64,000 nucleotides of DNA from Termitomyces sp. T153 (taxonomy: Eukaryota > Basidiomycota > Agaricomycetes > Agaricales > Lyophyllaceae): assembly GCA_018296165.2 (NCBI GenBank), contig JACKQL020000047.1, forward strand, positions 248,001 to 312,000, read 5' to 3'. Position 1 is the stretch's first letter. Every line of letters starts with the position of its first letter. Under the pieces are notes generated by a model. The model did not search any database and was not told the origin of the DNA. It saw only the letters and a program-made list of their open reading frames with translations. This document shows positions 1 to 61,487 of the stretch, piece after piece. Position numbers and translations under genes: made by a program.

Positions 1-480
1 AGGTTGGGAGTAGTCCTGGAATTTGGTGATGTCATGATGAACTCTCCTTAGCAGGTCTGGCAGTGGGGCTCATTGGGGTCATGCAGAGTTGATGGGTGTT
101 GGTTATGATCAGTGGGCAGGCCACAGCAATATACTGATGGGATCAGATGGGAACACAGGCCACTCCAGAGTTGTCATGATGCTCTGGAGCTGGTTGGGTA
201 AGTTAGAGTGACAAACCTGTGATGTATGCTGGCCATCAGGAACAGTGGAGAAGGGTTCCAGGGGCTCAGGAGAGGAAGGGGAAGTGTCAAGGTCTGTGGA
301 AAATGCATCAGAGTTAGTCAGGGAGCTGTTGGAGTTAGCTGGGGTGGGTGCCATGAGTGAACAAAAGTTGAGGGAGTTTGAGGGGCTGTTGGGGGGGAAC
401 TCCAGGGGGCAAGGTGGCTGGAAACAAGGTCTGGGGGTTCAGGAAATGGGTTGTGACACTCATGGACACTGGGAAACTGG
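1..480 (-). mobile_element. Decayed transposon segment, Ser/Pro-rich, copy of the 40.1-40.6 kb segment
   Basis: On the minus strand this reads as a Pro/Ser/Asn/Thr-rich coding stretch of about 80 codons. It is a diverged, inverted copy of plus-strand DNA at 40,130-40,560: both share runs about Leu-Glu-Pro, 'ACTGTTCCTGA' and 'CATGACAACTCTGGAG'-like blocks in the same order. At the other site the segment follows a Cys/His motif, so I take both as the N-terminal linker of one transposase family, possibly Plavaka-type (CACTA-like elements of basidiomycetes). That family name is from memory of the layout and is uncertain. The copy is cut by the window start and contains stops. Confidence 0.45.
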
Positions 481-1178
481 ACTTTTCCTCTTTGATGTAT
501 TTTTGTCTCACGTCTCAGCTATATCTTGACTAAGCTCATTGCTCTAAATATCCATTACTTACACTTCTCTATAATTATGCAACAACAATCAAGGCTCTAT
601 TAGATTGTCTAATGGACCTTCTGATGACTTTTGGGAAAGCTCAGCTTTGTGTACAAGAGGCTCAGCAAGCATTCTTGGAGCTGTTGGCATTGATCAACTA
701 GCATGACATTTTCCAAACCCAGGTGTTAGGCAAGATGGCTCTGACAAAGAAATTAGATAATGTTATAGGCTGTTTCACATTCAATGTAGCCATCTGCAAG
801 GACTTCTACTGGTTTGGTGTTCTAGTCTATTTTATTTGCAACTTTACAAAATTGCACACAATGTACATAAAAAATGTCATCAATTCCCACCTTCCTAACA
901 AAACCATCACTTCTACATATCACATAAATTATGCTTCTATTTTTGTAGGAGCAGTGACATCACTTAAAAAATACCATGCCATCTGCTGGTTTTGCACACT
1001 TTTCATAAGAAACCAAATCCATTTAACAAATATCATGCCACTCCATGTCTAAAGACTTCACTACAGTACACAACCTTTATAAGTAATACCCAAGCTTGTG
1101 CTATGTGAGACAACCCTTGTAAGTTTGGTGTCTGGATTTTTGATTGCCTGTTCTTATTTCCTCAAAGATGCATAGCAG
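481..1178. other. No gene seen
   Basis: AT-rich, CpG-poor DNA with only short open frames and no family motif that I recognise. It ends in a possible intron acceptor just before the next decayed reading frame. Confidence 0.5.
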
Positions 1179-2190
1179 ATGAAGAAGAAATCCAAATTGT
1201 ATCCACCTGCAGGCCACAATAAGTTCAAAGACCCTAATGACCCTATTTTTCCACTGGCAATCCCAGCCTGGCACAAAGCCCTCTTTGAAGTGAATCTGTT
1301 ACACTTCAACTTTGTCAATCCAAATGTTCTCCCTTCAGATTTTGGCTATGCATTTCCAGAACCAGCATCCTTCATTGCCTTCAAGAAAGTAGAGAGGTGT
1401 AATGTTGCCTTTTGCAGTTGGATTTGATATCAAAATGCCTTTATTCATTGGCTGACATTTCAGAAGTATGATGCTTGACCCATGTCTGAGAAGGCTTGGC
1501 ATGATATTCTCAGGTTTGGCTGGCGTGAGAAGCCCTCCCCCACACATCCTTCCACTAACAAGCAGCCTAAAAATACTAGCAGACAGAAATTGAAAAATTC
1601 AAGCCAATTGCAATTGTTAAAGGATCTTAGGCTCATACCTGAGTGCAGATGGTCTTATGTCTAGCAAAGTGGAACCAGGGGAACAATGCTGGTATGGCAA
1701 GCCTTTTGTAGCATTGGACAATAAGGATTTCAAACAGGTTTTGTTGGAGCTCACTGAATTCAATTTCCATCAGGAATTTCATGCTTTGGAACTGCATACA
1801 ATTCTGAATCTGAGATGGTTTATCAACAAGAGTGTGTTTGTAGTTGCTTTCCAGGGTGGCAACTTCTCTCTATCTGACTTTCTGACACCAACCATGGCAT
1901 TGCAAGTCACAACAAGGAGAAGCGATGCTGATATTCACTTGAGATGCAGCATATGAATGGCCTGGAGAAAAAGCAAAGATTTCCAACTCAACAAACTGTG
2001 GTGGCATTTGAAGGAAATAAATGATCTTGAAGTGGCTGTTGCTCATTTTTACACCCAAACTTTTTACAGCTATTTCTGGCACACTCCAATTATCCCATGC
2101 CACCTCTCATACACAGTAGTTGAATTTATTCCCTCTCCCCCTCTTTTTCAGCATCTAAACCCTCCACCTCAGATTTCTTATGATTTGACC
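1179..2190 (+). pseudogene. Decayed ORF of unknown function, probably transposon-associated
   Basis: Three successive plus-strand frames (1,179-1,427; 1,482-1,664; 1,657-1,956) can be read as one broken protein. It includes an aromatic stretch near GYAFPEPASFIAFKK, then WHDILRFGWREKPSP, then a region with WYGKPFVALDNKDFKQVL. The order and composition recall a multi-copy protein that I remember from agaricomycete genomes near transposons, but I cannot name a domain. Stops and frame changes interrupt it (for example TGA at about 1,425), so it is not a working gene. It may belong to the same element as the 1-480 segment, although the strands are opposite. Confidence 0.35.
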
Positions 2191-2193
2191 TGA

Positions 2194-3419
2194 TCATTTT
2201 ATCTTGGTGGTCTCCTAGAGGACAAATGATCATTAAATGTACTACCAGTAATCAATGGAGGTACTATCTGCTCCTCAATATGTTACTTGTTGAGAGAAGT
2301 TGAAGTTAATCTCATGCAGCTGATGCAATGAAGTATACTTGCTTTTCTGCATCCTCTCCTGATGTGATGTCCAGCTCCAGCTCACTCATCTATACAAGAA
2401 ACTAGTGTCCAGGTCAATTTCATCTTTTCTGTATTGTTGATTTTCACAATTTGTAATGCACAAATCAACCCAAACAGTGAGGAGTGGGAATAATAAATAT
2501 TTCCTGCAAATCATCCGCTTCTCAAAGTGGAACAGATTTGTCAAGATATCTGACCATCTTTGTATTACAAAAATCTTCTCAAGTAGTATACATTCCTGGC
2601 TTTATTGACTCAATTTTGATTGACAGATATGTTCTCTACCAGGAAATTTTGTCAGTATGCAAGTATGTATATATTGTTGAAAGTTATTGAAGAATGGGAA
2701 AAGATAAGTATTTATGCTTTAAAAATCTACAAAGTTTCGGAGGTCATTTATTGGAGTTGGAGGTATGATCCTACCAATTGTAATTTTTAGAAAACTTTGA
2801 AAATTGCAGGATATACAAAAAACTTCCAAAATAAGACCCAGATCTATTATCAATTCACCAAAACAGAATTTGGATGGGATACCTCAAACTCCAAAACCCT
2901 CTCAAAGCCAAGGAATTGAGTATCTCTGAGACATGCAGAAGTAGAGCCAAATGGATGATAAAATCCTGTCTAGTGAGCCTACCAAAGGTATTACTCTCAG
3001 AAAGATCTCCACTCCTTGAAAAATTGAGGGAAACTAGAAAAATTGGGGGAAACTATAGTTAAATACCCACACTCAGGCTAGATACCATCTTGTCTGATGT
3101 TTACACTATTCACATGAAAAATGTTGGCCATCAAAGTAAGTGCTGCCCTCTTTTGGAAACAAACTGGCTTGCAAGTGTCACTGCTCTAGTACTCCTTTTT
3201 TATTGGAAACAGATCCTAGCACCAGCAGTGTGTGGAACCCTTTAATTCTCACTCAAAAAATAATGTGTGTAGTCTAAATTATATGTTTTTAAGTGCAGGT
3301 ACAAAGTCACATCCTGATTCCTTTGTCTGAATGGTGTCATTCTCTGAAAATTTGAGGTGCCATGAGAGTAGATCTATCATTGATCATTATGTGCAGCCTC
3401 TTCACTCTGCTGTAGTGAT
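2194..3419. other. No gene recognised; scattered short open frames
   Basis: CpG-poor DNA. A 62-codon open frame at 2,874-3,062 has no recognisable motif. I see no RNA gene and no element terminus. Confidence 0.45.
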
Positions 3420-3962
3420 GATTTTTTCAACAATTCTCTCAGCTAGGTTGTCATGAGAGACCTTAACTCAGAGGTGGACCATATACTAACAATCCCTTCA
3501 GGTTAGTACTTATTCTCTCAATGTATATTTGAACTGGTTCACTCCTTGTTGTTGTAAGTTAATATAATCCCCTTTTTTCTCAGACCATTTCTTGTTACTT
3601 GTTTCTGTATCTCCAATCCCATGGGGCATCCATGTAAGTATAACTCTCTAGAAGAGCATCAGCTTGCAAGGAGTGCATACTCCAGATGAAATTATCAGAA
3701 GTAAGTTTCTGAAATCGGAGATATTACAGATCATCTCATTGTTCCATTGTAGACATAAGGATACAGTGAACATATGCCACCAGATTCAAAGAATGAAAAA
3801 ATTGCAAGTTTTTGCCCTCCAGATCATACTTTTCAATTGAAAATTCATGGATCACAATTAAAGAAGGAAATGATGGTCTGCATGCAAGGGAGATCTTCTG
3901 AAGAACACACTTATTTTGATAGTATTTGCAAGTCTTATGATGTCTCATATATACACAAGTGA
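3420..3962 (+). pseudogene. Decayed intron-containing gene fragment, unknown product
   Basis: Intron-like units are visible: a GTTAGT donor near 3,502 with an acceptor near 3,583, a GTAAGT near 3,633, and GTAAGT near 3,701 with TAG near 3,752. The last open stretch (3,774-3,962) encodes 62 residues including ENHT-like and FQLKIHGSQLKKEMM motifs, with no family recognised. Intron remnants suggest genomic DNA of a former host gene rather than a transposon ORF. The first exon has at least one stop. The sequence could be a third captured fragment like the two farther right. Low confidence. Confidence 0.3.
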
Positions 3963-4066
3963 TCACAAGAAATCTATTATAAAAAAATTTAACAACATTC
4001 TCACAACCTCCTTGAGTGTTATTTTTGATAGAAGGTGTCCTTAGCAATCAAACCATAGCAAAATCT

Positions 4067-4067
<1 letters not shown>

Positions 4068-4097
<30 letters not shown>
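4068..4097 (+). repeat. (GAT)10 microsatellite
   Basis: Thirty bases of uninterrupted GAT repeat in non-coding, CpG-poor DNA. Confidence 0.95.
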
Positions 4098-4234
4098 CCA
4101 AATTTATTTCTTTAGAGACCTATTTTATGCACATAATATTACTTGAACAAGTTGCATCCTAGGTCCTGCAGTACATAAGGGGGTGGTAATCATGGACACT
4201 CCCATTAGTTCTCTGGTCAGATCTCTTTTCAGCT

Positions 4235-4325
4235 GATGCCAGTTATGCCTTGTAGCCACTTTACTACAATTTGATCTTGTCAGAGTTCATACTACTTCTC
4301 ACACTAAGTCCCATCCATCTTGAAG
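4235..4325 (+). repeat. Dispersed repeat, copy 1 (other copy at 50,565-50,645)
   Basis: Shares 'ACTTTACTACAA', 'GAGTTCATA' and 'TAAGTCCCA' blocks in order with 50,565-50,645. It is probably a fragment of an old transposon family; no coding sense was found. Confidence 0.5.
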
Positions 4326-4609
4326 GAGTGTGGCAAAACTCTCAAACTGTCAACTGTTCTTCAAGACTCACAGTAAATATTTTGTACTATTCTCAAGATT
4401 GATGACTATGAGTGAATGGGGTCTGAAGAAACTAGGGGAAACACAGGAATGTGAATGATTTCACAAACACTTGGTTTTCTGTGTAGAAACAAATATAAAA
4501 TATGCACAGCATTTTCCATGATAATAGTTTATTCAATGTATTTCTACTTTGCTTTGTTGAACTTCCAATCAGAAAATAAATTTTTATTATGTTGAATAGA
4601 AAATTAGCT

Positions 4610-5240
4610 AGGTAATGTGATCAATGAGTATCTGAGGCTGAAAGTCTATCCCAGCAGCAAAGAGTGCCACCAAAGCCAGTTTGTGCAATGGCAAGAGGCT
4701 ACAAGCTCATTCCACTAGTGAAAAGTGATGTACAATAATGAGGACAACTGATGCATTTGCAGTGGCAAAATATCTGACTAGGTTGTAAGCCAAAAGAAAA
4801 GAAAAATGATTGATTGAAAACTTAACATAACAAAGTTCCTCAATCAAAGGATCATCAAGGGAAAACCAAAAGGTTTGACTGGGTAATACATTAGGCAGTC
4901 AATATCTGGGTCTCAAAGTCAATCCCAATGGAAAAGAGCAATACAGAAAGCAGTCTGTGTGCTTGCAGCAGGCTCAAATCTCATCTTATAGGTGGACAGC
5001 AATGTCTAACAAAAGCAACTGATGCATTGGCAGCAGCAGGATATCTTACTGTATTGTAAGCCCAAATAAGAATGAATGAATAGGAACTGACTATCAAACA
5101 AAATCCCATCATCAAAGGATGAAAACCCAAAAAGATATATCCAACTGACTGAGTGACACAGTGGGCAGGTGATGTGAGGCTATTAATGGCAAATGGCACT
5201 GCCAAAACCAGTCTGTGTGATGGTGGGAGGCTGCAAGGCT
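4610..5240 (+). repeat. Diverged tandem repeat, period about 272 bp
   Basis: A unit containing AACTGATGCATT, then GGTTGTAAGCC or ATTGTAAGCC, recurs at 4,745 and 5,017. Flanking blocks also repeat: 'CAATGGCAAGAGGCT' or 'GTGCTTGCAGCAGGCT', and the 'CAAAGGAT...AAAACC' stretch. A partial third copy covers about 5,156-5,235. The units have diverged by substitutions and small indels. No coding frame runs through them. Confidence 0.65.
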
Positions 5241-6589
5241 CTCCCAGACAATGTGAGGCTAAGATTTGATCCCAACAAAGAAAAAGGAATGTTAAAGGAG
5301 CTTGCAAACAGTGAGAGACTCACTGACAACAACTAAGAAAGGACTTGAGAAGGACTTAGGAAATTGAGAAGGACTTAGGAAATGGAAAAGGTGATGAAGT
5401 AATGGAGCTGACTTAATACTCAGCCTGAGAAATATTTCTTTTTCCCTTTGTTCTCTGGATCAACTTTGGTAGTTTCATTGTGTGGACTAGGGCTTGCCTT
5501 CCACTACTGCATGAACAGGTTTTGGCAGTGTAAGGAATTGAGATGCTGGACCACTTTTGAATTAAAAAGGCATCTCTGTTTGGCAGGTTCATTGTATGCA
5601 TTGCTCTTTCTGATTATCTCACCTTCCACAGTATTTAAAGACATCTGGTTTTTGATGTACCTTTCAAACTCAAACCATCACCTCTGTCTGGTAAGCATCT
5701 GTGTTTACACCTCTATTTCAGTTCTTGACTGTGCACCAAGGGGTAATTAAAAGATGCAGTTAGTTCAATTCTGTTTCCACAATTTGAAGAACTAATCCCT
5801 CAATCTTTTGTGTGTTTTTGGATAACTTTTATGCCCTCAATGAATTCAACAGCAACATTGCAGAGGACAATTCCATTTAGAACTCAGACTATCACTTGAT
5901 GCAGTAGCCTTTTGTTTGCAAGGAAGGAGACACCTCTATGGATCATCCTCTCTAAAGAAATTTGCTTAGTTGGGATGGTTGCTTAGTCAAGATTGTGGTG
6001 CACTCTGATCATATAGTAAATGCTACATGTATAAATTTAGGGATTGGGCTCAACATCCAAGACCAGAAGATTCTGGTTGAACAGTGTCAAGAATGTGTGA
6101 CTGTCTTGACAAGAACTATTGTTAGTTAATGCAATTTCTTCTCATTTTTATGTCCAACTCTATAACTATGCCAGCTTATAAGTCTGAGCTCAATTGTCTG
6201 CTGCTCTTCAGGAATATAATGTAAGTTTGATAGAACCAATTAGTAGAGAATCAACTCAGTCAAAACAGGCATACTTATGTGAGAGGGCAAGATTCAACTG
6301 TTCAATGTTGGAAGATGAGCAACAATGTTGAACAGAAAGATGCTTTTGAGGCCAACCAGCCAGTGACAGCAGTGGCATTATTGGTACATTGTTCTTCACT
6401 TTAAGTACAATAATATTGCTCATCAGATGGCCAGGACAAAGGTTGGCTATCCAGATGTGAGGTCTCAATGGTAAGATGGTCCATTAATGACAATTCTAAA
6501 CCAACCAGGAATACAGATGGTTTAGTGAAAGAGATGGATAAGCCTACATCATCCTTCATCAGTTCAAAGTAGACTTCATGCAGCATACT
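5241..6589. other. No firm gene; short tandem repeat and possible AND-1 5' remnants
   Basis: A short repeat of 'GAGAAGGACTTAGGAAAT' occurs at 5,346-5,390. The stretch from about 5,940 has open plus-strand pieces that could be the upstream WD40 part of the AND-1 pseudogene that follows, but I could not align them convincingly. Confidence 0.35.
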
Positions 6590-8335
6590 GTATTCTGATG
6601 AGCATTACAAAAGCTCAACCACCTTTCTAACCAGCATCTACTCCAATAGAGAGTAGAAAGAGATATCTCAGTATGCCATACTCTTCCATCTTTGGTGAGC
6701 TATTATTGAGTTTGCATAGTATATAACATACTAGGTGTCATAGCAGTAACAGATTAAACCATGTATCAGATCATCAATATTGAATTCTTTGACCATTCTG
6801 CCTGGAGATCATACTATTTCAAAGATTACTTCAAATACAACCTTGGGTACCTTGGTGAGACATATGAATTTCTCCTCTTATCCACTCATTCCTCATCTTT
6901 TCCCAAGGCAAGCATTGTGCTGTTTTTGCATGTCCTCCACAAAGTAAACAGTGTGGTCAAATCTTTCATAAACCTTATGGCATATGGAGTGACCAGTATG
7001 ATTGGACATATGTCCTCAGATGTCCAGGAACATCAGTGTTAGGCATTGTAGTGGGTAGTACACCCCCCACACATAGTTAACAGTATCCAAATGACATTGC
7101 TGTACAGGATTGGGGAAATGCAGTCATTGCTACATCTGAGGGTGACTTGACATTTTTGAGTGGCATGGGAAAAGAGCAAAGGATTTTGGGGCTTGGTGGA
7201 GACTTTGTTTCAATGGTAGCTGGCTCTGAGTGGGTGTTTGTTGTACATCAAAATAGGATGGCAATGATTGATGGTATGGTTTTAATATATCTTGAGGGTA
7301 AAGTGGCCCAACAATATGCTTTCCAGGTTCACAGAACCTCTCATATTTGATCATCAATTTTGGAGACTTCAGTGTGAAAAGGTCACACTCTCAAATGGAT
7401 TGGGTTGACTGACCAAGAAGTTTACTTTCTATTGCTTTGACTGATGATTACCACATGCTTATAGACTTGTCATTCTAGGTGCCAGCAATGTATGACAGTA
7501 TAGGCTATGTACATATTCTCATGAAAAATTGTATGCCATGCCATGCTTCTTGGGTGAGAGTCATGGATACAAATTTGCTGGAGCAACATCAAAGAGAAGA
7601 TGAATCATGTTGGCCTGTTGGCATCCCTGTGAGTAGCTTCATGTGTTGTGTACTGAAGGTATGCTGCCAGAGAGAAGTCAGCTTTGTGCTCTGTTTGGAT
7701 GATGTGTTTTACCACAGAGAAGGCAGAAGCATTCCAGTTTCCCACATCCCCTAATTCAAGAGTTCTCACTATGCTTACTCTTCTAGCTTGACAAACCAAA
7801 GGAAGAACTGTAAGAGCTGTTTCTCTTTCACAAGTGATAAACAATCTAATGGGGCCATCATTACAGCATTGAACATGAATTACTATTTGTCCAAATTACT
7901 CTAGACTTGCTTGACAAGGAGCTTACAACTGATGACATCCTTAAGTGGGAGCCACTGGACAAGGAATTCATCATCCTTATCTAAACAGCCTGCAAAAGCA
8001 ACAATGTTTCCCATGCTGTTAAGCTTACAAAGCTTCTATACCACATCTCATCTTTCCACTCAGCAATTAAGATTCCTGGCTTTTATCACCTCATCAGTCT
8101 ACAAGAGAAGATTGCAAACCTTAAAGCAGATCAAGAGAATGTAGATAGATTCATTGCAGCACAAGATGAATGCAGATGATGGTTGAAGCCTGACCCACTT
8201 CTTTGTGAGCTTTGAGGCACTCCAAAGGCCTATGGACTACATGTGAGGATTGATTCACTGGGTGGTATTCCTTTCAAAGACAATGTAGATTTGGCCCCCT
8301 CAGTTTCATCATCTGGCAATGGTAAGCAGAAGAGG
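6590..8335 (+). pseudogene. AND-1/Ctf4/Mcl1 (SepB) pseudogene fragment
   Basis: AND-1/Ctf4 (Mcl1 in fission yeast, SepB in Aspergillus) is a trimeric adaptor linking the replicative helicase to polymerase alpha. In order I read AQPPFQPASTP then RKRYLS; an FFDHSAWRSYYFKDYFKYN block near 6,785; [16 protein letters not shown] at about 7,131, followed by [19 protein letters not shown]; a block around YDSIGYVHIL; DTNLLEQHQREDES then WPVGIPVS; and a C-terminal DKEFIIL...YHLISLQEKI region ending near WLKPDPLL. This is the family's order from linker through the second beta-propeller to the C-terminal helical domain. The frame changes repeatedly, stops are present, and intron-like gaps with GTGAGC or GTGAGT starts remain. 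That points to a DNA-level copy rather than a retro-copy. CpG is almost absent. The N-terminal WD40 part is missing or unreadable. Confidence 0.75.
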
Positions 8336-8439
8336 ACAGAGATTTGCATCCAACTTTTCAAGGCCTGTGCCCAAGCAAAGTTCAGGTTTGTGGCTCTGAT
8401 TATTGTGGTAGGCGGCTAACAATGATATCAAAGAGGCCA

Positions 8440-9110
8440 AACTATTTGCATACAAACCTGGCCATATCACAATGCAATTTGCTGTTGAGCAGGACTCCCA
8501 AAATCATGTGTGCTGTTAATCCTAGTCACATCTCCCAAACCTTTATAGACACTGCCCTTCATGAGGTTGTTGATAGCATTGCAGTCATCATGGTCTCTCT
8601 GTTGGAAATTGTTGATTACAATGTGGAGGTTAGTGGTCTTCATTGATTTTGTCTTTGGTAAAGTTATATTCATCGAATGTTTAGGGTCAACAATATATAT
8701 GTGCTGGAGAAATCATTGCTTTGCAAACAATTACCAATGTATTGAATCATTTGAAAGTTCAGAAAATTGATATCACAAAAGTACATATATGGCTATATAA
8801 TAAAATCTGATTGTATAGCTTATTTGAATATATCTCAACTGATGGAGAGCTTCACTGTTGAAAAGGTTAAGGAGATGTTTGGAGACATTGTCAAATGCTT
8901 CAAGATGGCTTCTGAAAGCACATCAAACTTGAGCATGGATTCACAACAATTCCTTTGCCTCAAATTGATGTACCAGTCCATTTGGAGTACCTCCGGGCTG
9001 GAGTGATGCTGTTCTGTGCTTGTAAGTTGACTGATTCTCTGACTGAATCTATATTTGAATGTGGCTTGTAACCTCTCAAAGAAAATCAATCAGAAGCAGA
9101 CAGAAGTCTG
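8440..9110 (+). pseudogene. Fatty acid synthase beta subunit (FAS1) fragment, malonyl/palmitoyl transferase region
   Basis: Fungal FAS1 is the beta subunit of the cytosolic type I fatty acid synthase. The fragment reads ITMQFAVEQDSQN, then CAVNPSHISQTF, then LLEIVDYNVE. An intron-like gap (8,630-8,682) follows, then GQQYICAGEIIALQT and NVLNHLKVQKIDITK, a second intron-like gap, a block around SFTVEKVKEMFGDIV, TTIPLPQIDVPVH and, after a third gap with GTAAGT at about 9,025, LSKKINQK. This matches the order of the malonyl/palmitoyl transferase domain. The catalytic GHSLG part lies upstream of what is present. Frameshifts and a small deletion break it, and it cannot be functional. It abuts the AND-1 fragment on the same strand. 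Confidence 0.8.
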
Positions 9111-9122
9111 GCACAAGATTCA

Positions 9123-9794
9123 GTGGACATGACAAGGATAAGCTTGAACTTGAATGCAAAATATCAAATGGAAGTGGTGAAGAAACCATTCTCACCTTTT
9201 TATTTCCATTCAAACCAATACAATTTTGTTGTCCAGATCTTGGATCAAATCCTCATCCTCTATCTTACACTTGCATGTAGTGCTGTCTACATCAAATTCC
9301 TGCACATTTATGATGTAGGGAGAGCATGCCATCTTGATGTATGGACCTGCAGCATCATTGTGCTTGATGTCAATGCCTGTGAGGCCTCAAGAGCAGGAAG
9401 AATGCTTGGAGACATTAGAAGACATGTTCATCCTCTATCTTATACTCTTTGTCATTTCCCCTGCAGTGTGGGTGAAGTGGCAAGGCTTGAGGCTGGTGCA
9501 GCTGTGCTTGCACATGGTGCTGTGTGCACCAAATCCCTGTGCATCCACAATGCAGGAAGGATGTGCTGTCTCAATGTATGGACCTGTGATGTTGATGTGC
9601 TTGATGTTGATGCCTGTGAGGCCTCAAGAGTGGGAAGAATGCTTGGACACATTAGAAGACTGGTGAGGTTAGTGGCAAAAACTAGGAATGCAGGGGGACT
9701 CACAATTGTTGACCCAGAGCTAGAGTTATTGTTGTTAGATGATGTTGTATTGTCACAGCTAATAGCTGCAAATTGTGACTGTTGCACATGGTGA
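9123..9794 (+). CDS. Open frame of 223 codons containing a 79-codon tandem repeat; doubtful gene
   Basis: This is the longest open frame in the left block. It is built on two in-frame copies of a 237-bp repeat (79 codons), each ending around VDACEASRVGRMLGHIRR or its variant. Between the repeats lie PLSYTL and Cys-rich pieces. No domain is recognised. The minus strand also reads open as a Ser/Ala-rich frame (9,452-9,787), so openness may reflect the repeat composition rather than coding. It starts right after the FAS1 fragment. The probability that it is a real gene is low. Confidence 0.2.
   Translation: MDMTRISLNLNAKYQMEVVKKPFSPFYFHSNQYNFVVQILDQILILYLTLACSAVYIKFLHIYDVGRACHLDVWTCSIIVLDVNACEASRAGRMLGDIRRHVHPLSYTLCHFPCSVGEVARLEAGAAVLAHGAVCTKSLCIHNAGRMCCLNVWTCDVDVLDVDACEASRVGRMLGHIRRLVRLVAKTRNAGGLTIVDPELELLLLDDVVLSQLIAANCDCCTW
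9252..9662 (+). repeat. Tandem repeat, period 237 bp, about 1.7 copies
   Basis: 'GTATGGACCTG' at 9,339 recurs at 9,576, and 'ATTAGAAGAC' and 'TGTGAGGCCTCAAGAG' recur at the same spacing of 237 bp. The period is a multiple of three, so both strands keep their frames through the repeat. Confidence 0.85.
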
Positions 9795-9977
9795 CTTTTT
9801 CCAAATTGACTACCATATCTACTTCTACCTCATGTTCCAAGTCCTAGCTATGATCAAATCTGGATCCTGCAAGCTTTTTTCCACCAGATCCTGACTGGAG
9901 ACAGAAGAGGTGGAGGAAGGTGCTATAGTACTGCAAGAACATTCCTTATTAATGAGGCACTGCATCACAAGAACTGC

Positions 9978-10508
9978 TTACCCTATTATCAACCAATATT
10001 TGAGGCTGCACCACTTCTCTCTACTTACCAAAATTATGTCCACAAGCCTAATCCAAATCTTTGCCCAAGGTTTAGTCAGAACATAGCCAGGATTAGACCT
10101 TAAGGAAGCCATAGCAGAGGACAAGAAGTTGGAAGCCCTTGCCAAATGGGGGAGGTTTGGAAGTTGAATACTGGTATTGTAAGTGGAGTTTGCTATCACC
10201 TGTGCCTTCTGACTGTTGATATCTCTCAGTCTGTGGCATTTGGGTGAGTATCCTTTGATTACTCCAGATATTTTTTTCATGGCTTGCAGGGGTGCAAGTT
10301 GGGGTGCACTTGCCATTCCCCAAGAACAGGCCATGTCACACATTGCCTTCATATTCTCCGCATCACTCTCTATTTCAGCACTCTTGTCCATTACCTTCAT
10401 TACAACTAACCTTGTGGTCATGCAAGTGAGTTCATTATACTCATTCTTCCAATTATTCAAGGTTGATTTACCATGAAAGGGAATATTTAACACATGCAGC
10501 AGTAGCAC
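9978..10508 (-). CDS. Open frame of 176 codons, unrecognised, probably relic
   Basis: An uninterrupted minus-strand frame with a Met/Ala-rich stretch and an APQLAPLQAMKKISGVIKGY motif. It has no recognised domain, signal peptide or membrane segment. It sits in CpG-poor DNA between the repeat ORF and the border of the gene island. It could be a gag-like or other transposon ORF, or a further captured gene fragment. No function is proposed. Confidence 0.25.
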   Translation of the reverse strand: MLLLHVLNIPFHGKSTLNNWKNEYNELTCMTTRLVVMKVMDKSAEIESDAENMKAMCDMACSWGMASAPQLAPLQAMKKISGVIKGYSPKCHRLRDINSQKAQVIANSTYNTSIQLPNLPHLARASNFLSSAMASLRSNPGYVLTKPWAKIWIRLVDIILVSREKWCSLKYWLIIG

Positions 10509-11597
10509 ACTAACTCCATCTACTGTTTTTGATACTGACTTTTGTCAACATATCCATCATTCTCACTACTTCTGTGGCTATGATTGCCCTTTCCACAACT
10601 TTTGAGCTGCTTGTCTTGGTCCCTATAGGCATTTTTTTTCTTCCTTTTGTCCTTTATCTCCTTTTACCTGATTTGCCCTCTTGAAAATCCTACTTCCTCC
10701 CCTGAAGGCAGCTCTGTTTGACCTTCATTTTCTTTCAATGTTGTTAATTTTTGTTTTTTGGTATTTTTTTCTTGGTATTCTTAGTCTATTTTTCGTGTAC
10801 ATGTAGTATATTTTAGAGAGAATCTTATTATGACTGTATTACATTGTATAAAATGATATATGACAATGAAAAATATGATATAAACTTGAAGTTTTCCAAG
10901 TCCTTCCAATAATCTGGAATTAGGGAACGATCTGGAGGTAGGAATGAAACTGTGGAAGTGTTGAAGGATGATCACTGGTCAGATCACCTGAGATGAATGT
11001 GAGATCAGAGGTAGTTTATTTTGAAATTACTCTCAAGGAAGTTGTCTCTGAGGCCTATTGCTGTCTGTCAAAACAATGAGCCTCCAAGGCCCATTAGGCA
11101 GCCCGATTAGTGCTGCCTCAGGTGCCACAAACAGCTTTCTAGTCCAACTCCAAAAGACCGCTCGAAAAGACAGAAGAAGCAGCACAAGTAATCATACATA
11201 TTTTCGTCGATGTCTCCTGATTCTGTGATCCAAAGTTGACTTTACAACCTATCTTCCAAATCTGCTATATTAGATCATTGTCGAGAGTTAAGCTGTCACT
11301 TTTCATAAAGATGTACTGTCGCATTTCATGACAACAACGACACGAATTTATATTATAAACAATCAATCCATTGTATCAATTTGGAAAGTTTGTTCATTGT
11401 TCCCATTCTAAAGGTCTCTCACCCAGTTGCTCAATCAAAGATGTAACCTTGAATATCTAAACTCCTGTAGGTAATTGTCAGAATTTAAAAAGTTACCAGA
11501 ATAAATAGGTGGGTATTAATACACTGAGCAATGATAGCAAACTGATGCTGAGAATGAAACAAGCCAGAAAATCATATATATCGTCATCAAGAGATAT
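10509..11597. other. Gene-free stretch holding the CpG-poor to CpG-containing border (about 11,090)
   Basis: Up to about 11,090 the sequence is almost free of CpG. From 'GCAGCCCGATTAG' (about 11,099) onward CpG is common ('CGCTCGAAAAGAC', 'TTTTCGTCGATG'). No gene is seen. The right half is the 3' flank of the kinase-like gene. Confidence 0.6.
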
Positions 11598-12930
11598 TCA
11601 AGACTTGGGTATAGCTGGAATACGACGCGCCTTGCGGATGAGTTGAGTCGCCCAGTGTCCGATCAAGTTGGTGACTTTGGTCCGCTGGTCAACTTCAATA
11701 ATGGGTGAACGCAACTTCCAGTCACTGAGTCCCTCAATTATAATTTTTAATCGAGAATTGGCTTCGCTCATCTGAGGCCGCTTCTTGGGATCGGAATTTG
11801 TCATGTCGTCAATAAGCTCACGCATAAAATCGAAACCTTTCTTGGCTTTCGCATATATACACCCCTAACACATCGTCAATATATCATCGATCGTCAAGAA
11901 GTTATACGCACATCAAGGAAATGTTGCCTAATACAGTTTCCTAGACAATACACGTCAACTGGGAATGGATCGCACGGAGGAGCATCAGGTAGAAGATGCT
12001 CAGGAACGGTTTTGTCGCCGCCCCACGGTGGTTCTTCCAAGCGTGGGGCTCCAGGGGGATACTCTTTGGACAAATCAAAGTCTATTAGATAGTACTTGAC
12101 CGGCTTAATGGTTCGAGAGGCGACAATCGAAGGTCTGCCAGTAAAATCACGTTTCATGAAAGTCAGAAAGGGATGTGGAGGAGCATCAAACAAATGCTGA
12201 GAATCTGCCATGATGTTATTGTACTTGCAGTCTCTGAGAAATTAATAAAAGTCAAGATGCTTGTGCATAAATTTAAAGTCGTACTCATGTGCGATGTTGT
12301 GTTCGTGCATGAATTCCAAACCCTATAGCAAAACTGAACCCATGAGTTCTCAAAAAATTTGGGATACGAGACCAACCTCAAATATTTGACGGAAGAACTC
12401 CACGACTTCACCAATAGTTTGAAAAGGTGCTCGTTCGATCCCTAACAAGAGAGGCAAAACTAAAAACGCTTTTTCTGAGCCTTCTGGGGGATCGATGACC
12501 TCCAGATATGGTATGCAGGAATTCCTTGGAGATGCAAGACGTTCGGAAGACAACAATTTGCCAACAGGGATTTCATCCGGGGAGCGTACCAGATGGATCG
12601 CCTTCAGCATGACTAGGGTTCCATCAGCTCGGCTTGCGTCCATGAGCGAACCCTGCGCGAAGAGAACATCTCTCGAGAGTGGATCAAGGGCAGTTACGAC
12701 AAGATACACACTGTAGCGACTACTCCATCTTCACATTCAGTCCACCGTTTGGAAGTGTCCAACCAGGAAGGTCTCCAGTCTGGCTGATAACGTGGTCTGA
12801 GAGTATAACCATGATCTTTGAGATATTGACAATGCTTGCGCCAGAAGAGTTCGGCAGGTATGAGTTGTCCATCCTTTGCGGCAACTCCAGGGGGTGCGAC
12901 GAATGTCTGGGGATCGAATGGAGTACTCAT
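11598..12930 (-). CDS. Protein-kinase-like protein, five exons, 373 aa
   Basis: Exons (minus): 12,930-12,712; 12,652-12,377; 12,322-12,285; 12,233-11,912; 11,864-11,598. Introns have GT/AG ends (47-59 nt) and the joined frame is exactly 374 codons including the stop. The start is the first ATG before FDPQTFVAPP; the upstream in-frame start is TTG and was not used. Read in order: an N-terminal region with YLKDHGYTLRPRYQPDW, a lobe with GTLVMLKAIHLV (lysine candidate), GLEFMHEHNIAH, a catalytic-loop equivalent HEDCKYNNIM, YYLIDFDLS in place of the DFG region, and PFPVDVYCLGNCIRQ as the D-x-x-x-x-G helix. This is the layout of the expanded agaricomycete kinase-like families. HED for HRD and DFD for DFG make catalytic activity doubtful. 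It is the only intact member of a local array whose other pieces lie at 14,843-15,086 and 17,145-17,275. Confidence 0.8.
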
Positions 12931-13262
12931 GCTCAAGACGTAGTTGGGGGGATCGACGCGACAAGGATGCACCAATTGCCAGTTAAGTGATGGACTCTTG
13001 TTCCATTTTCCGAAGTGATGAACGTGTCAAAAGCTGTTACGTACATAAGCGTACATACTACCGCTTCCCACACAACGATCAGGCGTCAAGAACAAAGAAG
13101 TGACGCGACTTGCGACTCTTCTGGTTTCAGAAAAACTTTGTTCCATTCTGATATTTGGATCACTGGATCCATGGATTCTGAGCCAACGCTCATATAAACT
13201 GATGCAGCAATGCGGCAAAAATAGGACTTCATATCATCAGACATCCTTCTCATCGGACGATA

Positions 13263-14080
13263 ATGGCACTTAATGGCTTCGTCGGTGCTTCCAACATCGG
13301 TTCATTTCTCCTACAAGCTGCATCCTTCGGCCAATGCACGATGAACAACTATAGCAAGATTCAAGTACGACTCTTGGATGCTAGTAGGCAGCTGATGAAG
13401 CGTAATCAGAAAGTACTCCAGATATCTGACTGATGATGAATTTGAGGAAGCAATGCGCCAGTGTGAGGAGTGAGTTCGAATTATTTTTCACCTCAACTTC
13501 TTATTCATTTTTATAGCACCATGCAAAAGGTGGCGAAAAGTCTGAAAGAAGATGCAGCTTGCAAGACTTTTATTGTTGAGATCAAGAAATATCGAGAAAG
13601 CAAAGAAAAGGCGCAATATAAAGTTGTTTCGAGCCACGTGATTATGGCAAATGTAATAGTAAGTAATCGTCTGGTATTAGTAGGCGGACTATAATGATTT
13701 ATTTTGGACTGTGTCCTCTGGCAAGAGTGTATCCACAAGAGCAAAAAGACGCGAAGAGAAACGAATCGATGAAACTGGGAACATTCTGCGACTCCAGCGA
13801 GTAGATGAGCTTGAAAGGATTTTGATGCAGGCCCCAGGTTTCGACGGAGCGACTTGTAAGGGTCTTCTGTTCGGTGGCATCCAATCACTCAATCATTTAC
13901 TTTCTGTCTCCAGTAATACATCACCTGAGGCAGGTTCCTCTTCCTCCTCCAAATTCTTCGCCTTCTCTGTCAGGCAATGAAGCCAGCAATCCTTTCAAAG
14001 ATCCGACGTCGGCGAGCGGCTTGAATTCAGTCGCCGGAGGAGACTCAGATGCTGGAGATTTGTCTCTTCAGTGCGCATGA
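13263..14080 (+). pseudogene. Small unknown gene, copy A, frame broken in exon 1
   Basis: ATG at 13,263 opens MALNGFVGASNIGSFLLQAA. A frame change of about 8 nt net, relative to copy B, falls after LLDASRQLM; downstream the other frame gives RKYSRYLTDDEFEEAM and ends at a GTGAGT donor. Exon 2 (from about 13,519) reads MQKVAKSLKEDAACK...IKKYRESKEK, exon 3 reads STRAKRREEKRIDETGNIL to DGATC, and a final exon with a Ser/Pro-rich tail ends at TGA 14,080. The composition (Lys/Glu/Arg heptad-like) suggests coiled coils; no family is recognised. It is divergent from the kinase-like gene with about 330 bp between their starts. It is unclear whether the break is real or hidden by an unrecognised intron. 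Confidence 0.5.
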
Positions 14081-14842: not shown

Positions 14843-15086
14843 CAGCAGTTACAACGGGATACACATTGTAGCGACTACTGCATTTTCACATTCAGTCCAC
14901 CGTTTGAAAGTGTCCGGAAGGCCTTCAGTCTGGCTGGAAACGTGGTCTGAGAGTATAACCATGATCTTTGAGATATTGACATGTTGAACGTTTGCGCCAG
15001 AAGAGTTCGGCAGGTATGAGTTGTCCATCCTTTGCGGCACCTCTAGGGGGTGCGACAAATGTCTGGGGATCAAATGCAGTGTTCAT
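14843..15086 (-). pseudogene. Second kinase-like gene, N-terminal fragment only
   Basis: Start ATG at 15,086 opens FDPQTFVAPP, then AAKDGQLIPAELFWRK and YLKDHGYTLRPRFQPD, nearly the same as the intact gene at 12,930. It then meets a TGA where the intact copy has a Trp codon, plus a small deletion, and ends at the duplication junction (14,843). The rest of the kinase domain is absent. Confidence 0.85.
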
Positions 15087-15466
15087 ACTCAAGACGTAAT
15101 TGGTGATGGAACGACGTACTCCAACGACGCGAGAAGGATAAACCAATTGCCAATAAGTTATGGATTCTTGTGGACCTTGTTCATTTTCCGAAAGTGATGA
15201 ATGTGTCAAACGCAGTTACTTCCCACACATAAGCGCATACAGTTACTTCCCACCACGACGATCAGTAAAGAACAAAGAGGTCGCGAGATTTCCGATGGGG
15301 CTCTTCTGGTTTAATAACAGCTTTGTTCCAATTCTGATATTTGGTTCACTAGATCCATGGGGTTTCTGAGCCCGAACCCTCATATAAACCGATACAGCAA
15401 TGCGGTGAACATAGAACTTCATAATCCTCAGATTCCCTTCTCATCCTTGCTCACTACTGGACAATA

Positions 15467-16081
15467 ATGGCACTCAATAGCTTCGTCACCGACGCTTCTA
15501 ACATCGGTTCAGTCCTCATACAAGTTGCATCTTTCGGCCAACGCAGGCTGAACAACTCTAGCAAGATGTAAGGACGACTCCTGGATGCTAGTAGGCAGAT
15601 GTGGGAAAGCATGGGCGAACTCAGAAAGTACTGCAAATCTCTGTCCGATGATGAACTTGACCACATCATATGCCACTATGAGAAGTGAGTTTGGATTGAT
15701 CACCCACCATATTGACTCCTTCAAGTGATTTTTTTTTGACAGCCTCATGCAAATGATTGCAAATAGTCTGAAAGAAGACGCAGCACGCAAGTCTTTCATT
15801 GTTGAGGTTAAAAAGTATCGAGAAAGCAAAGCAATGGTAGAAAAAGCTATGATATTTGTGGAGGTAAGTAAATCGGTAGCTATAATGTTTTATATTGGAC
15901 ATTCAGTTGTGTCATTTGGCAAGAATGTATCCGCAATGACAGAAAAGAGACGAGTTGATGAAACTACGAACAATATGCGACTCGAGCGTAAAGACGAGTT
16001 TGAAAAAAGGATTTTGATGAAAGCAGGTTTGGACGGAACGAATTGTAAGGGCCTTCTGTTCAGTGACATTCAATCATACTA
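15467..16081 (+). pseudogene. Small unknown gene, copy B, with premature stop
   Basis: ATG at 15,467 opens MALNSFVTDASNIGS; a TAA follows NNSSKM (about 15,570), where copy A has CAA. After it the original frame continues with RLLDASRQMWESMGELRKY and SDDELDHIICHYEK to a GTGAGT donor at about 15,686. Exon 2 reads MQMIANSLKEDAARK then VEVKKYRESK; exon 3 reads SAMTEKRRVDETTNNMRLE to DGTNC. The Ser/Pro-rich last exon of copy A is deleted here. The two copies carry different lesions, so they decayed after the duplication. Confidence 0.6.
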
Positions 16082-17144
16082 AATCACCTACTTTCTGTTT
16101 AGAGATTCGTTGGTGAACGACTTAAATCTAATTTCAGCACGCATGACACTGCATCCGTGTGTTTGATACAACTCACCCGTCGCGATGTTATACGCCCACT
16201 CTCTTAAATCCCTCCTCATGACTCTCTGCTTCGAACATGACTTCTGGAAGTCAGCTGTAAAATATCGTATTTATTTAATGTCAGCGCTCAAGTTCAAGTC
16301 TTCTCCGAGTGAAGGCTACAGAGGGATTACGTGTGATAAGAAAAGGCTAACAAGTTAGAAAAGGTAAAGACAGATGGCAGCTGCCGTCGCATGTCGACCA
16401 AAATCAAGAACAACCGAATTAAAGACAAAGCAGGAGAGTGTCTATGTAGGACCTATAGCATCTGTGAGGAACAAAGAAAGTGCTCCGCGTTGACTTCGCC
16501 AAGATTGAGAACTTGTGGATTCAGACCCTCTGGTGAATGTGTTGATCCTTGATAGGCCGGCTGCAATTTTGTTGGTACTTACTATAATCTTATTAGAAGC
16601 CGAGGAAGGAACAACAAAATCCCAGACGCTATATCGGATCCGAGGCCGTTGCTTGTCAGTTGGTATGATCGTTGGCCACCATTCCAATGAACAAAAAGTT
16701 TTGAGGAGATAAGGCTTCCACGGAAACAAGTTGCACTTTTTGAGCGAATACATATTCATTCTGGCTTTGCGAGGCTTGGTCAAAAGTGACGTAGTTACGA
16801 AAACGAATACTTACAAGAAGAACTGCTCACCGATAGATTTCAGTACCGATAAAGAAAAATATCAATCGTGTGATGCCTCATATACAGATAACCTGAGCAT
16901 ATCCGATAACTCGTCTGGGACGCCGATTCAGTTTATCATCTGACAATCTTGTCAGTTCATCGGAAGAGGCTTGGACTGATACAAAGTGCACAGTAACGGT
17001 GGTGAAGATGAAGTGATAGACGAGCATGGATTCAACCTGACATAAACATCACATACCAAAAAGTACGATGGCTTGGATAGAGCAGATGCTATATACCTTG
17101 AGGATGATCGGTTTTTTAGGGATTCTGCTGATTGGTTAACAACA
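16082..17144. other. No gene; 3' flank of unit B and spacer
   Basis: 16,090-16,830 is the copy of the unit A flank. From 16,831 to 17,144 I see no coding frame with recognisable content. It could be the decayed middle of the kinase gene whose C-terminus follows. Confidence 0.5.
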
Positions 17145-57897: not shown

Positions 57898-59503
57898 CAG
57901 TGGCTCAAAAAACTGTTCTGATGTTTTATACTTCTTGAAAGATGACATTGGCATGATAGGCTCAAAGTATATAAAATTCTGGTTAAATCATGCAAAATAC
58001 TATGGCATCATAGCTACAAATTGCATTTTGGTTTATGTAATTTAAATTAAAATTGATGGAATAATGGCCATTTTAAGATATTCACTCATTAGAACAATTT
58101 TTTGAGCATCTCTAATTTTTGTATTTAGTACTTTGTATGTTCTCCATTTGCCTTGATAACTGCTTGAATCCTTCTATGCATGCTTTCTATCAGTCTTTGG
58201 CATACCTTTTCTGGTATTCCATCCCACTCCTTTGCAACACTCTCCTACAATTCATGCATACTATGAGGAGGTGTTTCATACTGCTTAAGCTGCTTCTTGA
58301 GGTACTCCTAGAGGTGCTCAATAAGATTAAGATCAGGGGATTGGGCTGACTACCAGAGGACATCAAAGTTGTTGTCTTCAAACTACTTGTTAGCCCTCTT
58401 AGAGTTGTGTTTGAGGTCATTATCCTGTTGAAAATAGCAGGCACCCTCCTTTATTTCCAACTTTTCAAAGCTCTCCTTTGCTCCATCATCCAAAATTTCA
58501 CAGTACTGCTCTGCATTCATGATTCCCACCACCTCTACCAGCTTTTCTACCCCATTCCAACCTACACAGCCCCATACTATGAGATATTCCCTCCTCCATG
58601 TTTCACAGTAGGTGTAGTAGTTCAGTTTGAAATGCCTCCCCTTATAGCTTCTACACATACTGCTTTCCATCTGACCCAATCCTGTTAATCTTTGTCTCAT
58701 CTGTCCGCAACACTCTTTTCCAGTCCTCTACAGTCTATTTCTGATGCTCTTAAGCCCATTTAAGTCATAGTTACCAATGTCTAGCTTTGAGCATAGGAAT
58801 TCTCCTCTTTGTAGCAGACCAATACCCCTCCTCCTTTAGCACATTTCAGACAGTATGAGGAGATACAGAGTTGGAAATGATGTTGTTGATAAAATTGGTG
58901 GCCTGAACAGCTGTATCAAGTCTCCTAGTTGAGATTTGTTGAACAATAGCCTGTTTATCATATTGAGTAAGCTTAACTGGATGGCCTCCAGGATGGTTTT
59001 CCTTGTCCACCTCCAACTCTCTACCAATCCTCCCAATAGTAGACTTCCCTAGACCAGTTTTAGCCTCAATCTGATGCAGAGAATACCCTTGAGCAAGAAG
59101 AGAAGCAACAGTAAAACATTGTGCAAGAGAAGGAGCTTCTATGTTGGTGGTTGAAGATCAAGATGTGGTTTAACCAACTTGAACTACTCCCAAATATAAC
59201 CAAACATGGTCACATGACTCTTTTAATATTCCCACATGCAACTTGCTCTTTATTTTTAACTAAAATAGAGATAAACCTGCAAAATTAGAGATGCTCAAAA
59301 AACTGTCTCAATGAGTGAATATTTTAAAATGGTCATTACTCCATCAGTTTTGATTTGAATTACATAAACTAAAATGCAATTTGTAGCTATGATTCCATAG
59401 TATTTTACATGATTTAACCAGAATTTTAAATACTTCCAATCCTTCATGCCAATGTCATTCTTTCAAAAAGTATAAAACATTCAAACAGTTTTTTGAGCCA
59501 CTG
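57898..59503 (-). mobile_element. Tc1-type DNA transposon with long inverted repeats
   Basis: Ends CAGTGGCTCAAAAAACTG at 57,898 and its reverse complement at 59,503, each beside TA (57,896-57,897; 59,504-59,505). The inverted repeats extend about 215 bp inward. The transposase lies on the minus strand (about 59,150-58,105): a paired-type HTH with GYSLHQIEAKTGLGKSTIG, then a second helix region, then DDE pieces including GCVGWNGVEKLVEVVGIMNA and YFQQDNDLKHNSK (second catalytic Asp), followed by a decayed SPDLNP-like region near 58,340. Frameshifts and stops make it inactive. Confidence 0.9.
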
Positions 59504-59505
59504 TA

Positions 59506-60283
59506 TGCACCACCCTAACAACCAGCATACTGGCTGTCATTCCATGTGTCAAATTTAGCTATAGTCAGGTTATTGACTTGCCCAAGCCACCTACCTTGCT
59601 TATATTGCTAGTGCTCCTTTTCACCATTATTGACTCCTTTTAGTTTTATTATTATTACTCACTATAAATACCATTATGTTTTCTACACTATCATCAAATA
59701 ATTGCACCTTGTTATTAGCTCCAGACTTCAGATCTAAGTCTAGCAACTTTAATACATCTTTTTTCACTCTAGCACCCTCTCTATTGAGTCAGCACCCTCA
59801 TTGTTTTGCTCAGCCAGTACTACTTGAGGATACTATATTGCCAAGTCTATGTCAAGTGCTAGCACCTATAGCTAGTTTAGTTTTATCATTATTCCCTGTC
59901 ACTAATGCCTTCTTCACTACACCTAGCACTAGCCTTTAGCATTGGTTTGCTAGCAACCTTTGTTTAGCACCTTAGTTCTACTCTAGTTGGGTTTACCCAC
60001 AGAGTCTCTCCCTTTCCTATTTGCTATCACCATCTCTCAACCTTGCACTAGCAACTTAGCACTACTTCTGCATCTAGCAGGCTTTCTGGGACCTAGCTTG
60101 ACTTGGAACCCTCATTTCTTTAGTCTGTTCATACTTTACTTGTAGAACCACTAGTTGTTGTGTTCTCTGCACAGCAGCTAGGTGGCAATAGATGTCATCA
60201 GCAGTGGAAAAGTAGGTAGGGTGTTTAGCATACCAATTCAAGCTCCTAGCAGGCCTGCATCAACTGCACCTAGTCTATAATGT
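59506..60283. other. No gene; decayed repeat DNA
   Basis: The open frame 59,676-59,939 (Ser/Leu-rich) has no motif. The region may belong to the gypsy element whose chromodomain follows. Confidence 0.45.
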
Positions 60284-60445
60284 TGTCAAGCTGTTCCCAG
60301 ATGTAAAAGACCCTATCTCTAGCTGCCATCCTAAAGCACCACCATCAATCCTGGTTAATGATGAGGAAGAGTATGAGGTGGAGGAAATTTTGGATAACAG
60401 GATATTCTGAGGGAAGTTACAGTTTAAGGTGAAATGGAACTTGTG
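60284..60445 (+). pseudogene. Chromodomain fragment of a third gypsy-type element
   Basis: The plus strand reads VKLFPDVKDPISSC, then EEEYEVEEILDNRIF, stop, GKLQFKVKWN. EYEVEEILD...KVKW is the hallmark of chromodomains at the integrase end of chromoviruses. Only this tail is recognised, and two stops break it. Confidence 0.75.
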
Positions 60446-60911
60446 ACTGAAAGATGGAAGGTCAACAATAAACAGCAGGCTTGGAATAAAGGAAACAATC
60501 AGAAGGTCTAGTAAGAGCAGTCTTCTGACATCACTCCCCCTCTAGCATGTAGTATCTCAACATACTGAGTAGAAGAAATCATGGATTGCTTGGTCAGCTG
60601 CAGAGATAGGGTAGATGCCCCTCATTGCCTTTGGGGCATTGGGGTGCCTGCAGTAAAAGTCTTGGACTAGAGCTAGTGCATGTACAATTGGCCTGTGGTT
60701 CTCAAGAGATATCCTCAATGCCATATCCCTAATTTCAACTGAAGGCTATTGTTTGGTCATATTTGTATGTGGTCACATGTTCTGAGTCTGGAGATTGAGG
60801 CCATTTACAATGAATTTTTATTTTTGGATCAAATTCCAGATTTGATTGTTGTTGAGTGTTCTTTCCAGAAGCTCTAGAGTAAATTTTCCAAACACTGGTA
60901 TTGTAAATCCT

Positions 60912-61050
60912 CAGACTTGTTCTCTTTAGATCTCCCCCTGCCAGGTGAATAGCTAGAACTCTAGAGCTTCTTATAGATGCTGAACAGACTTTAGATGTTT
61001 CTCTCCAAGTTGTGTGATTGAGCCACAGCCCCCAGAGGTTGCCCTTATGA
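60912..61050 (+). repeat. Copy of the LTR-like repeat inserted in the pogo element
   Basis: 'CAGACTTGTTCTCTTTAGAT' through 'TGTGTGATTGAGCCACAGCC' and 'CAGAGGTTGCCCTTA' match 24,657-24,800 in order, so the two sites carry the same repeat family. Confidence 0.75.
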
Positions 61051-61051
61051 T

Positions 61052-61223
61052 AGCCATTACTCTGTCAGTTCTAATTCAAATTACATAAGCCCAGATGCAA
61101 TTTGTAACTACAATGCCATAGTACTTTACATGATTTAACCAGAATTTTATGTACTTCCAATCCTTCATACCAATGTCATCTTTCAAAAAGTATAAAACAT
61201 TGGGACAGTTTTTTGAGCCACTG
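61052..61223 (-). mobile_element. Solo inverted-repeat fragment of the Tc1 family
   Basis: Collinear with the right inverted repeat of the Tc1 element (59,330-59,503), including 'CATGATTTAACCAGAATTTTA' and the terminus TTTTTTGAGCCACTG beside TA. The rest of the element is missing. Confidence 0.85.
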
Positions 61224-61279
61224 TAGGTCAGTTTTGGAGGAAATCACTAGGATCATGGTAGCACAACTACCTGTGCATT

Positions 61280-61280
<1 letters not shown>

Positions 61281-61340
<60 letters not shown>
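61281..61340 (+). repeat. (ATA)20 microsatellite
   Basis: Sixty bases of perfect trinucleotide repeat, probably the tail of the SINE-like element on the minus strand. Confidence 0.95.
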
Positions 61341-61487
61341 GGTGAATTTATTGCTCAATGTGTTGTGGGACTCCTTATTGGCTAGGATATTGTAGCTCAT
61401 GTAGACCAACACAGGACACAAACTGGAACTTCTGGCCAGAGGACCTGCAGTTTTTTCCCCAAACTCAGCCAAGTGGTCACCAAGCTA
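61281..61487 (-). mobile_element. SINE-like element with trinucleotide tail
   Basis: On the minus strand an A box TGGCTGAGTTTGG (61,459-61,471) is followed about 30 nt later by a degenerate B box in AGTTCCAGTTTG (61,419-61,430), then a short body and a (TTA)20 tail at 61,281-61,340. A pol III head, short body and simple-repeat tail is SINE architecture. The B box is weak and no target duplication was identified. Confidence 0.5.

Follow-up and report, generated by a model that had tools for sequence, protein, structure and literature searches.

A gene-fragment mosaic of Termitomyces sp. T153 as the probable cargo-bearing part of a dead Kyakuja-type DNA transposon

Gene fragments and their parents

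How did pieces of unrelated housekeeping genes come to lie side by side within the transposon DNA of Termitomyces sp. T153? The question was raised by a stretch of 64,000 nucleotides, hereafter the window, in which the original prediction had recognized parts of the AND-1/Ctf4 and fatty acid synthase (FAS) genes at positions 6590-9110. We searched the fungus's own genome of 72.4 Mb, comprising 307 contigs, in which the window corresponds to C47:248001-312000; positions given without a contig refer to the window. A DNA search with 6590-9110 as the query found AND-1 at C17 and FAS at C13, as well as partial copies at C11 and C21. The intact AND-1/Ctf4/Mcl1 parent (C17:940924-942455) matched with an E value of 2.2e-170 and an identity of about 69-70%, and the FAS parent (C13:320512-321177) with an E value of 4.9e-186 and an identity of 82% with gaps included or 85.7% with gaps excluded. 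The similarity is thus strong, and the two unrelated gene fragments were correctly named. The pieces in the window are copies, since intact parents sit on three other contigs: C17 (AND-1), C13 (FAS), and C38 (a third gene). The gene-derived part of the mosaic was made up as follows:

6078..8464, plus strand: decayed AND-1/Ctf4/Mcl1 copy with introns kept; it starts in the start-codon region and ends opposite C17:940442
8464..8465, plus strand: exact AND-1/FAS junction (parents C17:940442 and C13:321177), by eye without clear microhomology
8465..9128, plus strand: decayed FAS fragment, malonyl/palmitoyl-transferase part (C13:321177-320512, weaker to about 320483), intron kept
9183..9271, plus strand: third gene piece, gene unnamed (C38:387338-387424, 79% over about 80 bases, E 2.1e-10)
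9270..9660, plus strand: imperfect tandem duplication (9270-9423 and 9507-9660, 77%)

Positions 6426-8464 of the AND-1 copy aligned with C17:942594-940442. In a comparison with the fetched C17 stretch only, the copy was clear from about 6150, close to the start codon (63%, E 4.7e-23), and a weaker alignment reached about 6078. The fragment had been taken for the second half of the replication-adaptor gene, but it begins near the start codon and lacks about 1.1 kb of the gene's middle, with the gap near 6426-6496. A DNA search with 4340-6500 listed no other match; the same search missed the weak start-of-gene AND-1 match. The Mcl1_mid domain (PF12341) was above the cut-off both at the C17 parent and in the window copy, where it was split into three stretches inside C47:254713-255658 with 5 internal stops. 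Five candidate introns of the parent, unannotated and recognized by the GT-AG pattern, each had a counterpart in the window copy. The parent AND-1 protein, joined at approximate splice points, matched that of Termitomyces sp. J132 at 95% over residues 450-800 of the joined query. The window copy scored 545, 513, and 526 bits against three Termitomyces proteins and 531 bits against the outgroup Blastosporella, which suggests an old capture of AND-1.

The FAS fragment could be followed clearly up to 9094 and, as we read the alignment, less clearly up to about 9128. The C13 parent carried Acyl_transf_1 in the family search and corresponded to about residues 1614-1905 of solved fungal FAS beta chains. 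The window fragment was not among the matches listed for Acyl_transf_1 and is therefore identified through its DNA similarity to the C13 parent. By our reading, a single frame of the parent locus (L019) covers the transferase part and, after it, an acyl-carrier-like part, so the enzyme may be a fused beta-alpha FAS.

The two fragments are joined on the same strand without a gap, as had been proposed; the parent alignments place the junction exactly at 8464/8465 and not near 8340-8440. Part of the third gene piece was repeated at 9422-9465 (46 columns, 80%, compared with the C38 locus only). The intron-like gaps noticed earlier are parental introns kept in both the AND-1 and FAS copies. Because introns were retained in both main fragments, their source was DNA; a processed (retro)pseudogene, in which introns would be absent, was rejected. 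The proposal that the fragments were copied as DNA and joined inside mobile DNA is supported by the kept introns and by the location of the parents elsewhere. Introns and internal order kept within each fragment would also be expected from an ordinary segmental duplication or the local decay of neighboring genes, but the intact parents on C17, C13, and C38 contradict local decay in this genome and the gene pieces recur elsewhere together with the carrier repeat described below, which makes this explanation very improbable.

CpG loss and divergence

CpG depletion of the gene fragments, another feature of the original prediction, was confirmed: the copies contained 3 CpGs per 3,051 bases versus 188 per 3,705 and 31 per 695 in the parent stretches. 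Differences from the parents comprised many CpG losses plus transversions. The near-total loss of CpGs in the copies is most likely due to methylation-linked decay. Transversions relative to the parent were found in 165 of 1,699 columns for AND-1 and in 24 of 629 for FAS (p 1e-6); with fewer transversions, FAS looks like the later capture of the two, although a higher rate of change in the parent AND-1 gene would give the same difference.

The depletion extends beyond the gene pieces. Positions 1-11103 of the window (11,103 bases) contained 12 CpGs versus 401 in the next 8,897 bases. Across the whole window (1-64000), the CpG observed/expected ratio was near 0.00 in blocks at about 1-11, 22-28, and 41-64 kb and mostly 0.75-1.2 between them, and the block edges were sharp.

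The carrier repeat and its terminus

To the right of the gene pieces, the following features were found:

9421..11103, minus strand: carrier repeat of about 1.7 kb, shared with C42 (82%), C11 (85-87%), and, in pieces, C21
10970..11124, minus strand: 5' terminal stretch of the element, beginning 5'-CACCTGAGGCAGCACTAATCGGGCTG
11125..11131, no strand assigned: possible target-site duplication of 7 bases, TTTGTGG on the minus strand

Considered as a host gene, the carrier yielded no Pfam domain. Its far end begins, on the minus strand, with CACCTGAGGCAGCACT... Outside the CpG-poor carrier copies, the matches listed comprised a 61-base terminus at C157, 0.3 kb at C290, in a locus with a CpG observed/expected ratio of 0.45, and a piece at C38. 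In the four carrier copies, homology stopped somewhere inside a zone of about 200-400 bases. Past this zone, the neighbors differed from copy to copy, which suggests that it is one of exchange.

The boundary at the terminus was common to C47, C11 (571241), C21 (170573), and C97. The terminus was also present in C132, in a weaker form, and partly in C157 and C42. The C42 copy stopped about 18 bases short of it, at an internal A/TC, and C157 and C97 contained short terminus parts only (about 50 bases in C97). A degenerate pattern, built from the five copies already known, occurred at 6 places in the genome versus 0 for the reversed control; the sole new place was C97, with 3 mismatches. The element starts with a 5'-CA end (CACCT or CACAT) in C47, C11, C21, C97, and C132, and a near-terminal hairpin, imperfect in the window, was read by eye at 11075-11095.

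CpG depletion in the window ends at the terminus (11124). The corresponding boundary at C11 separated 3 CpGs in 11,241 bases from 176 in 3,759, and at C21 the flank was CpG-normal, with 72 CpGs in 1,572 bases versus 92 in 9,428 bases of the interior. A search for a partner of TTTGTGG at the left end gave a 1-mismatch match after TG at 4467 and a few others, by our own reckoning about as many as expected by chance; none was convincing. No inverted partner of the terminus was found above background in 1-24000 of the window and in the fetched stretches of C11, C21, and C42.

These properties of the terminus bear on whether the fragments were picked up and joined by a Helitron through rolling-circle read-through. 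Helitron_like_N is abundant in the genome (150 scored of 281 candidates), and the near-end hairpin, the internal A/TC at which the C42 similarity ends, and the missing inverted partner would all suit such an element. However, the similarity in C47, C11, C21, and C97 runs about 18 bases beyond the A/TC, no CTRR is present at the boundary GTGG/CACCT, and the window flank is G/C and not A/T. The one known end of the element thus lacks the features of a Helitron (5' TC, 3' hairpin plus CTRR, insertion between A and T). Moreover, at both C132 and C11 the same terminus lies ahead of a KDZ transposase. No Helitron domain (Rep/helicase) was found in the six frames of 1-4892, 9100-11202, and 59101-63992; non-autonomous copies would lack one as well. 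The Helitron suggested at the right end of the window is unconfirmed, since none of the 150 scored copies is on C47 and the six frames of 59101-63992 gave no Pfam match. Gene-capturing Helitrons, including HELPO1 and HELPO2 of Pleurotus, likewise join unrelated gene pieces in a mobile element, but the end found here does not fit a Helitron; in the Pleurotus study, none of the intact Helitrons carried P. ostreatus gene fragments, and the captured genes were of unknown origin (PMC4289320). Overall, a Helitron is an improbable source of the mosaic.

Sibling copies in the genome

Carrier zones combined with AND-1 and/or FAS were found at three loci. At C11, the terminus with the 5' stretch, the carrier, AND-1, CxC1, and the KDZ transposase follow each other on one strand. 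The Ctf4_C domain (E 1.3e-10) and the KDZ transposase (E 3.7e-10) were detected, and the CxC1 match was weak and under the cut-off (E 0.0016). KDZ loci related to that of C11 were also present on C12, C30, C73, and C114. Two long inverted copies of one repeat, one CpG-free and the other CpG-richer, flank this KDZ/AND-1 stretch (L021/L022, C11:560010-578734).

The C132 locus contained a KDZ match and a CxC1 match just under the cut-off (E 3.3e-5) and was CpG-normal around the terminus, which lies 0.2 kb ahead of the transposase start. This terminus scored 41 against a hand-typed composite terminus; none of 1000 resampled C132 sequences reached 41, the maximum being 27. An open reading frame spans the C132 terminus, which counts against the Kyakuja-type reading proposed below. 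Two parts of C132 and C11 could be aligned, one at the terminus and the other beginning with the start codon. They lie about 0.2 kb apart in C132 but 3.1 kb apart in C11, and the excess of about 2.9 kb in C11 consists of the carrier and the AND-1 fragment, placed between parts that are adjacent in C132. At C11, therefore, a captured fragment lies inside a DNA transposon, as in Pack-TYPE elements; in the window, one end of the element is known.

At C21, the terminus, a carrier piece, and a FAS piece were found in the same order and orientation as in the window; the whole spans 6.3 kb and is interrupted by other repeats. A repeat that is Tc1/mariner-like by our own reading of its frames occurs at 58416-59505 of the window and at C21:176888-177962 (87.5%), where it abuts the FAS piece.

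Relationships among the captured pieces

Relative to the carrier and the element, AND-1 is antisense in C47 and sense in C11, and the C11 piece reaches about 30 bases further on the 3' side. Transversions between C47 and C11 amounted to 56 of 663 columns (8.4%) in AND-1 versus 49 of 1420 (3.5%) in the carrier (p 3e-6); in three cleaner AND-1 segments, hand-picked from seven, there were 22 in 339 (p 0.014). Because AND-1 diverged more than the carrier, the two did not move together as one unchanged unit. Over 654 columns, C47 and C11 AND-1 had 24 shared transversions and 15 and 23 private ones, and all three sequences differed at 21. They shared 27 amino-acid changes in 166 codons, of which 16 were absent from ten orthologs; 5 of these 16 fall in an intron. 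Since the other 11 match an ortholog, part of the shared signal reflects change in the parent after capture. A single frozen AND-1 cassette common to both loci, considered as a candidate, was weakened by the orientation and by the divergence relative to the carrier. The pattern would be explained if AND-1 had been taken up twice, or if an AND-1-FAS block had been inverted and the copies had also exchanged sequence.

The FAS pieces of C47 and C21 differed by 7 transversions in 194 columns, and from the parent by 6 in 202 and 6 in 215, a star-like pattern, with 2 shared transversions among the 194 columns. With a mutual distance about equal to the distance from the parent and few shared transversions, these pieces may be separate captures.

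An alternative origin is host double-strand-break repair in silenced repeats, which would have put fragments of genes next to an old transposon end, with C11 and C21 as separate events. The AND-1/FAS junction without clear microhomology, the different orientation and divergence of AND-1 in C47 and C11, the star-like FAS pieces, and the many nested repeats in the surroundings are compatible with this scenario. Against it, the same carrier zone is paired with AND-1 and/or FAS at three loci, and the C11 cargo lies between element parts adjacent in C132. We consider this origin unlikely, but less so than a Helitron.

Probable assignment to Kyakuja-type transposons

There is good support for the mosaic being part of mobile DNA. 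Positions 6078-11124 probably represent the cargo-bearing 5' part, in reversed orientation, of a dead Kyakuja-type DNA transposon of the KDZ superfamily, and Kyakuja is likely to be the branch concerned rather than another KDZ branch. The window copy would once have had a transposase. No KDZ domain was found in the six frames of 1-4892 and 9100-11202 and the plus-strand frames of 4890-6491, none of the 110 KDZ matches in the genome is on C47, and a 3' end of the window element with TG was not found.

According to PMC12730594, Kyakuja elements of Agaricomycotina have 5'-CA..TG-3' ends, no terminal inverted repeats (TIRs), and 7-bp target-site duplications (TSDs), and some carry TET/JBP genes. 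The elements described here share with them the KDZ transposase (in a sibling copy), the 5'-CA end, with no inverted partner in the stretches searched, and the extra gene cargo inside the element. Unlike in those Kyakuja, the cargo consists of broken housekeeping gene pieces with introns and not of a TET/JBP gene, and the 3' TG end and the 7-bp TSD were not found.

The original prediction had offered a Helitron or a Pack-type DNA transposon as the capturing element. The second is close to the preferred reading, while the first is disfavored by the misfit of the terminus and the link to KDZ. Pack-TYPE elements and Pack-MULEs of plants (PMC8903248, PMC13317346) are similar in having host gene fragments inside a DNA transposon, but they are described as TIR elements of other superfamilies, whereas the present case is from a fungus and no TIR partner was found.

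Under the Kyakuja-type assignment, copies of this small family would have acquired genomic DNA, along with its introns, in the space that separates their 5' terminus from their transposase gene. The uptake would have been stepwise, with more than one rearrangement, involving the AND-1 gene, the FAS fragment, and the third-gene piece. Capture could have occurred via faulty repair, either by end joining or by template copying at an excision gap. The copies would also have inserted into several sites and been depleted of almost all CpGs. Being broken, the gene copies are not expected to have a function.

Significance and surroundings

Plant Pack-TYPE elements and Helitrons are well known to capture several host gene fragments. 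A light check of the open-access literature found no report of such capture by KDZ elements. Beyond the original prediction, the analysis provided the third gene piece, the sibling copies, the exact junction, and the likely kind of transposon. Tentatively, Kyakuja/KDZ elements might act as gene-fragment shufflers in mushrooms: pieces of unrelated host genes would enter, step by step, a cargo zone that separates the 5' terminus from the transposase, and would be swapped and inverted there, which would make these elements a TIR-less fungal counterpart of Pack-MULEs. According to PMC12730594, TET-bearing Kyakuja occur in all five Agaricomycotina orders that have TET-bearing transposons. General uptake of host DNA by KDZ elements, if true, would help explain the passage of TET/JBP genes between transposons.

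Two other repeats were observed near the element. Positions 4063-4321 contain a short repeat, about 220-250 bases in length, of which the genome has very many copies; nearly all of the 40 matches scored, of 244 candidates, were to this stretch. To the right of the element, in CpG-normal DNA, a 1.2-kb duplication was found (12690-13907 and 14845-16098, 74%), near which one frame looks kinase-like by our own reading.
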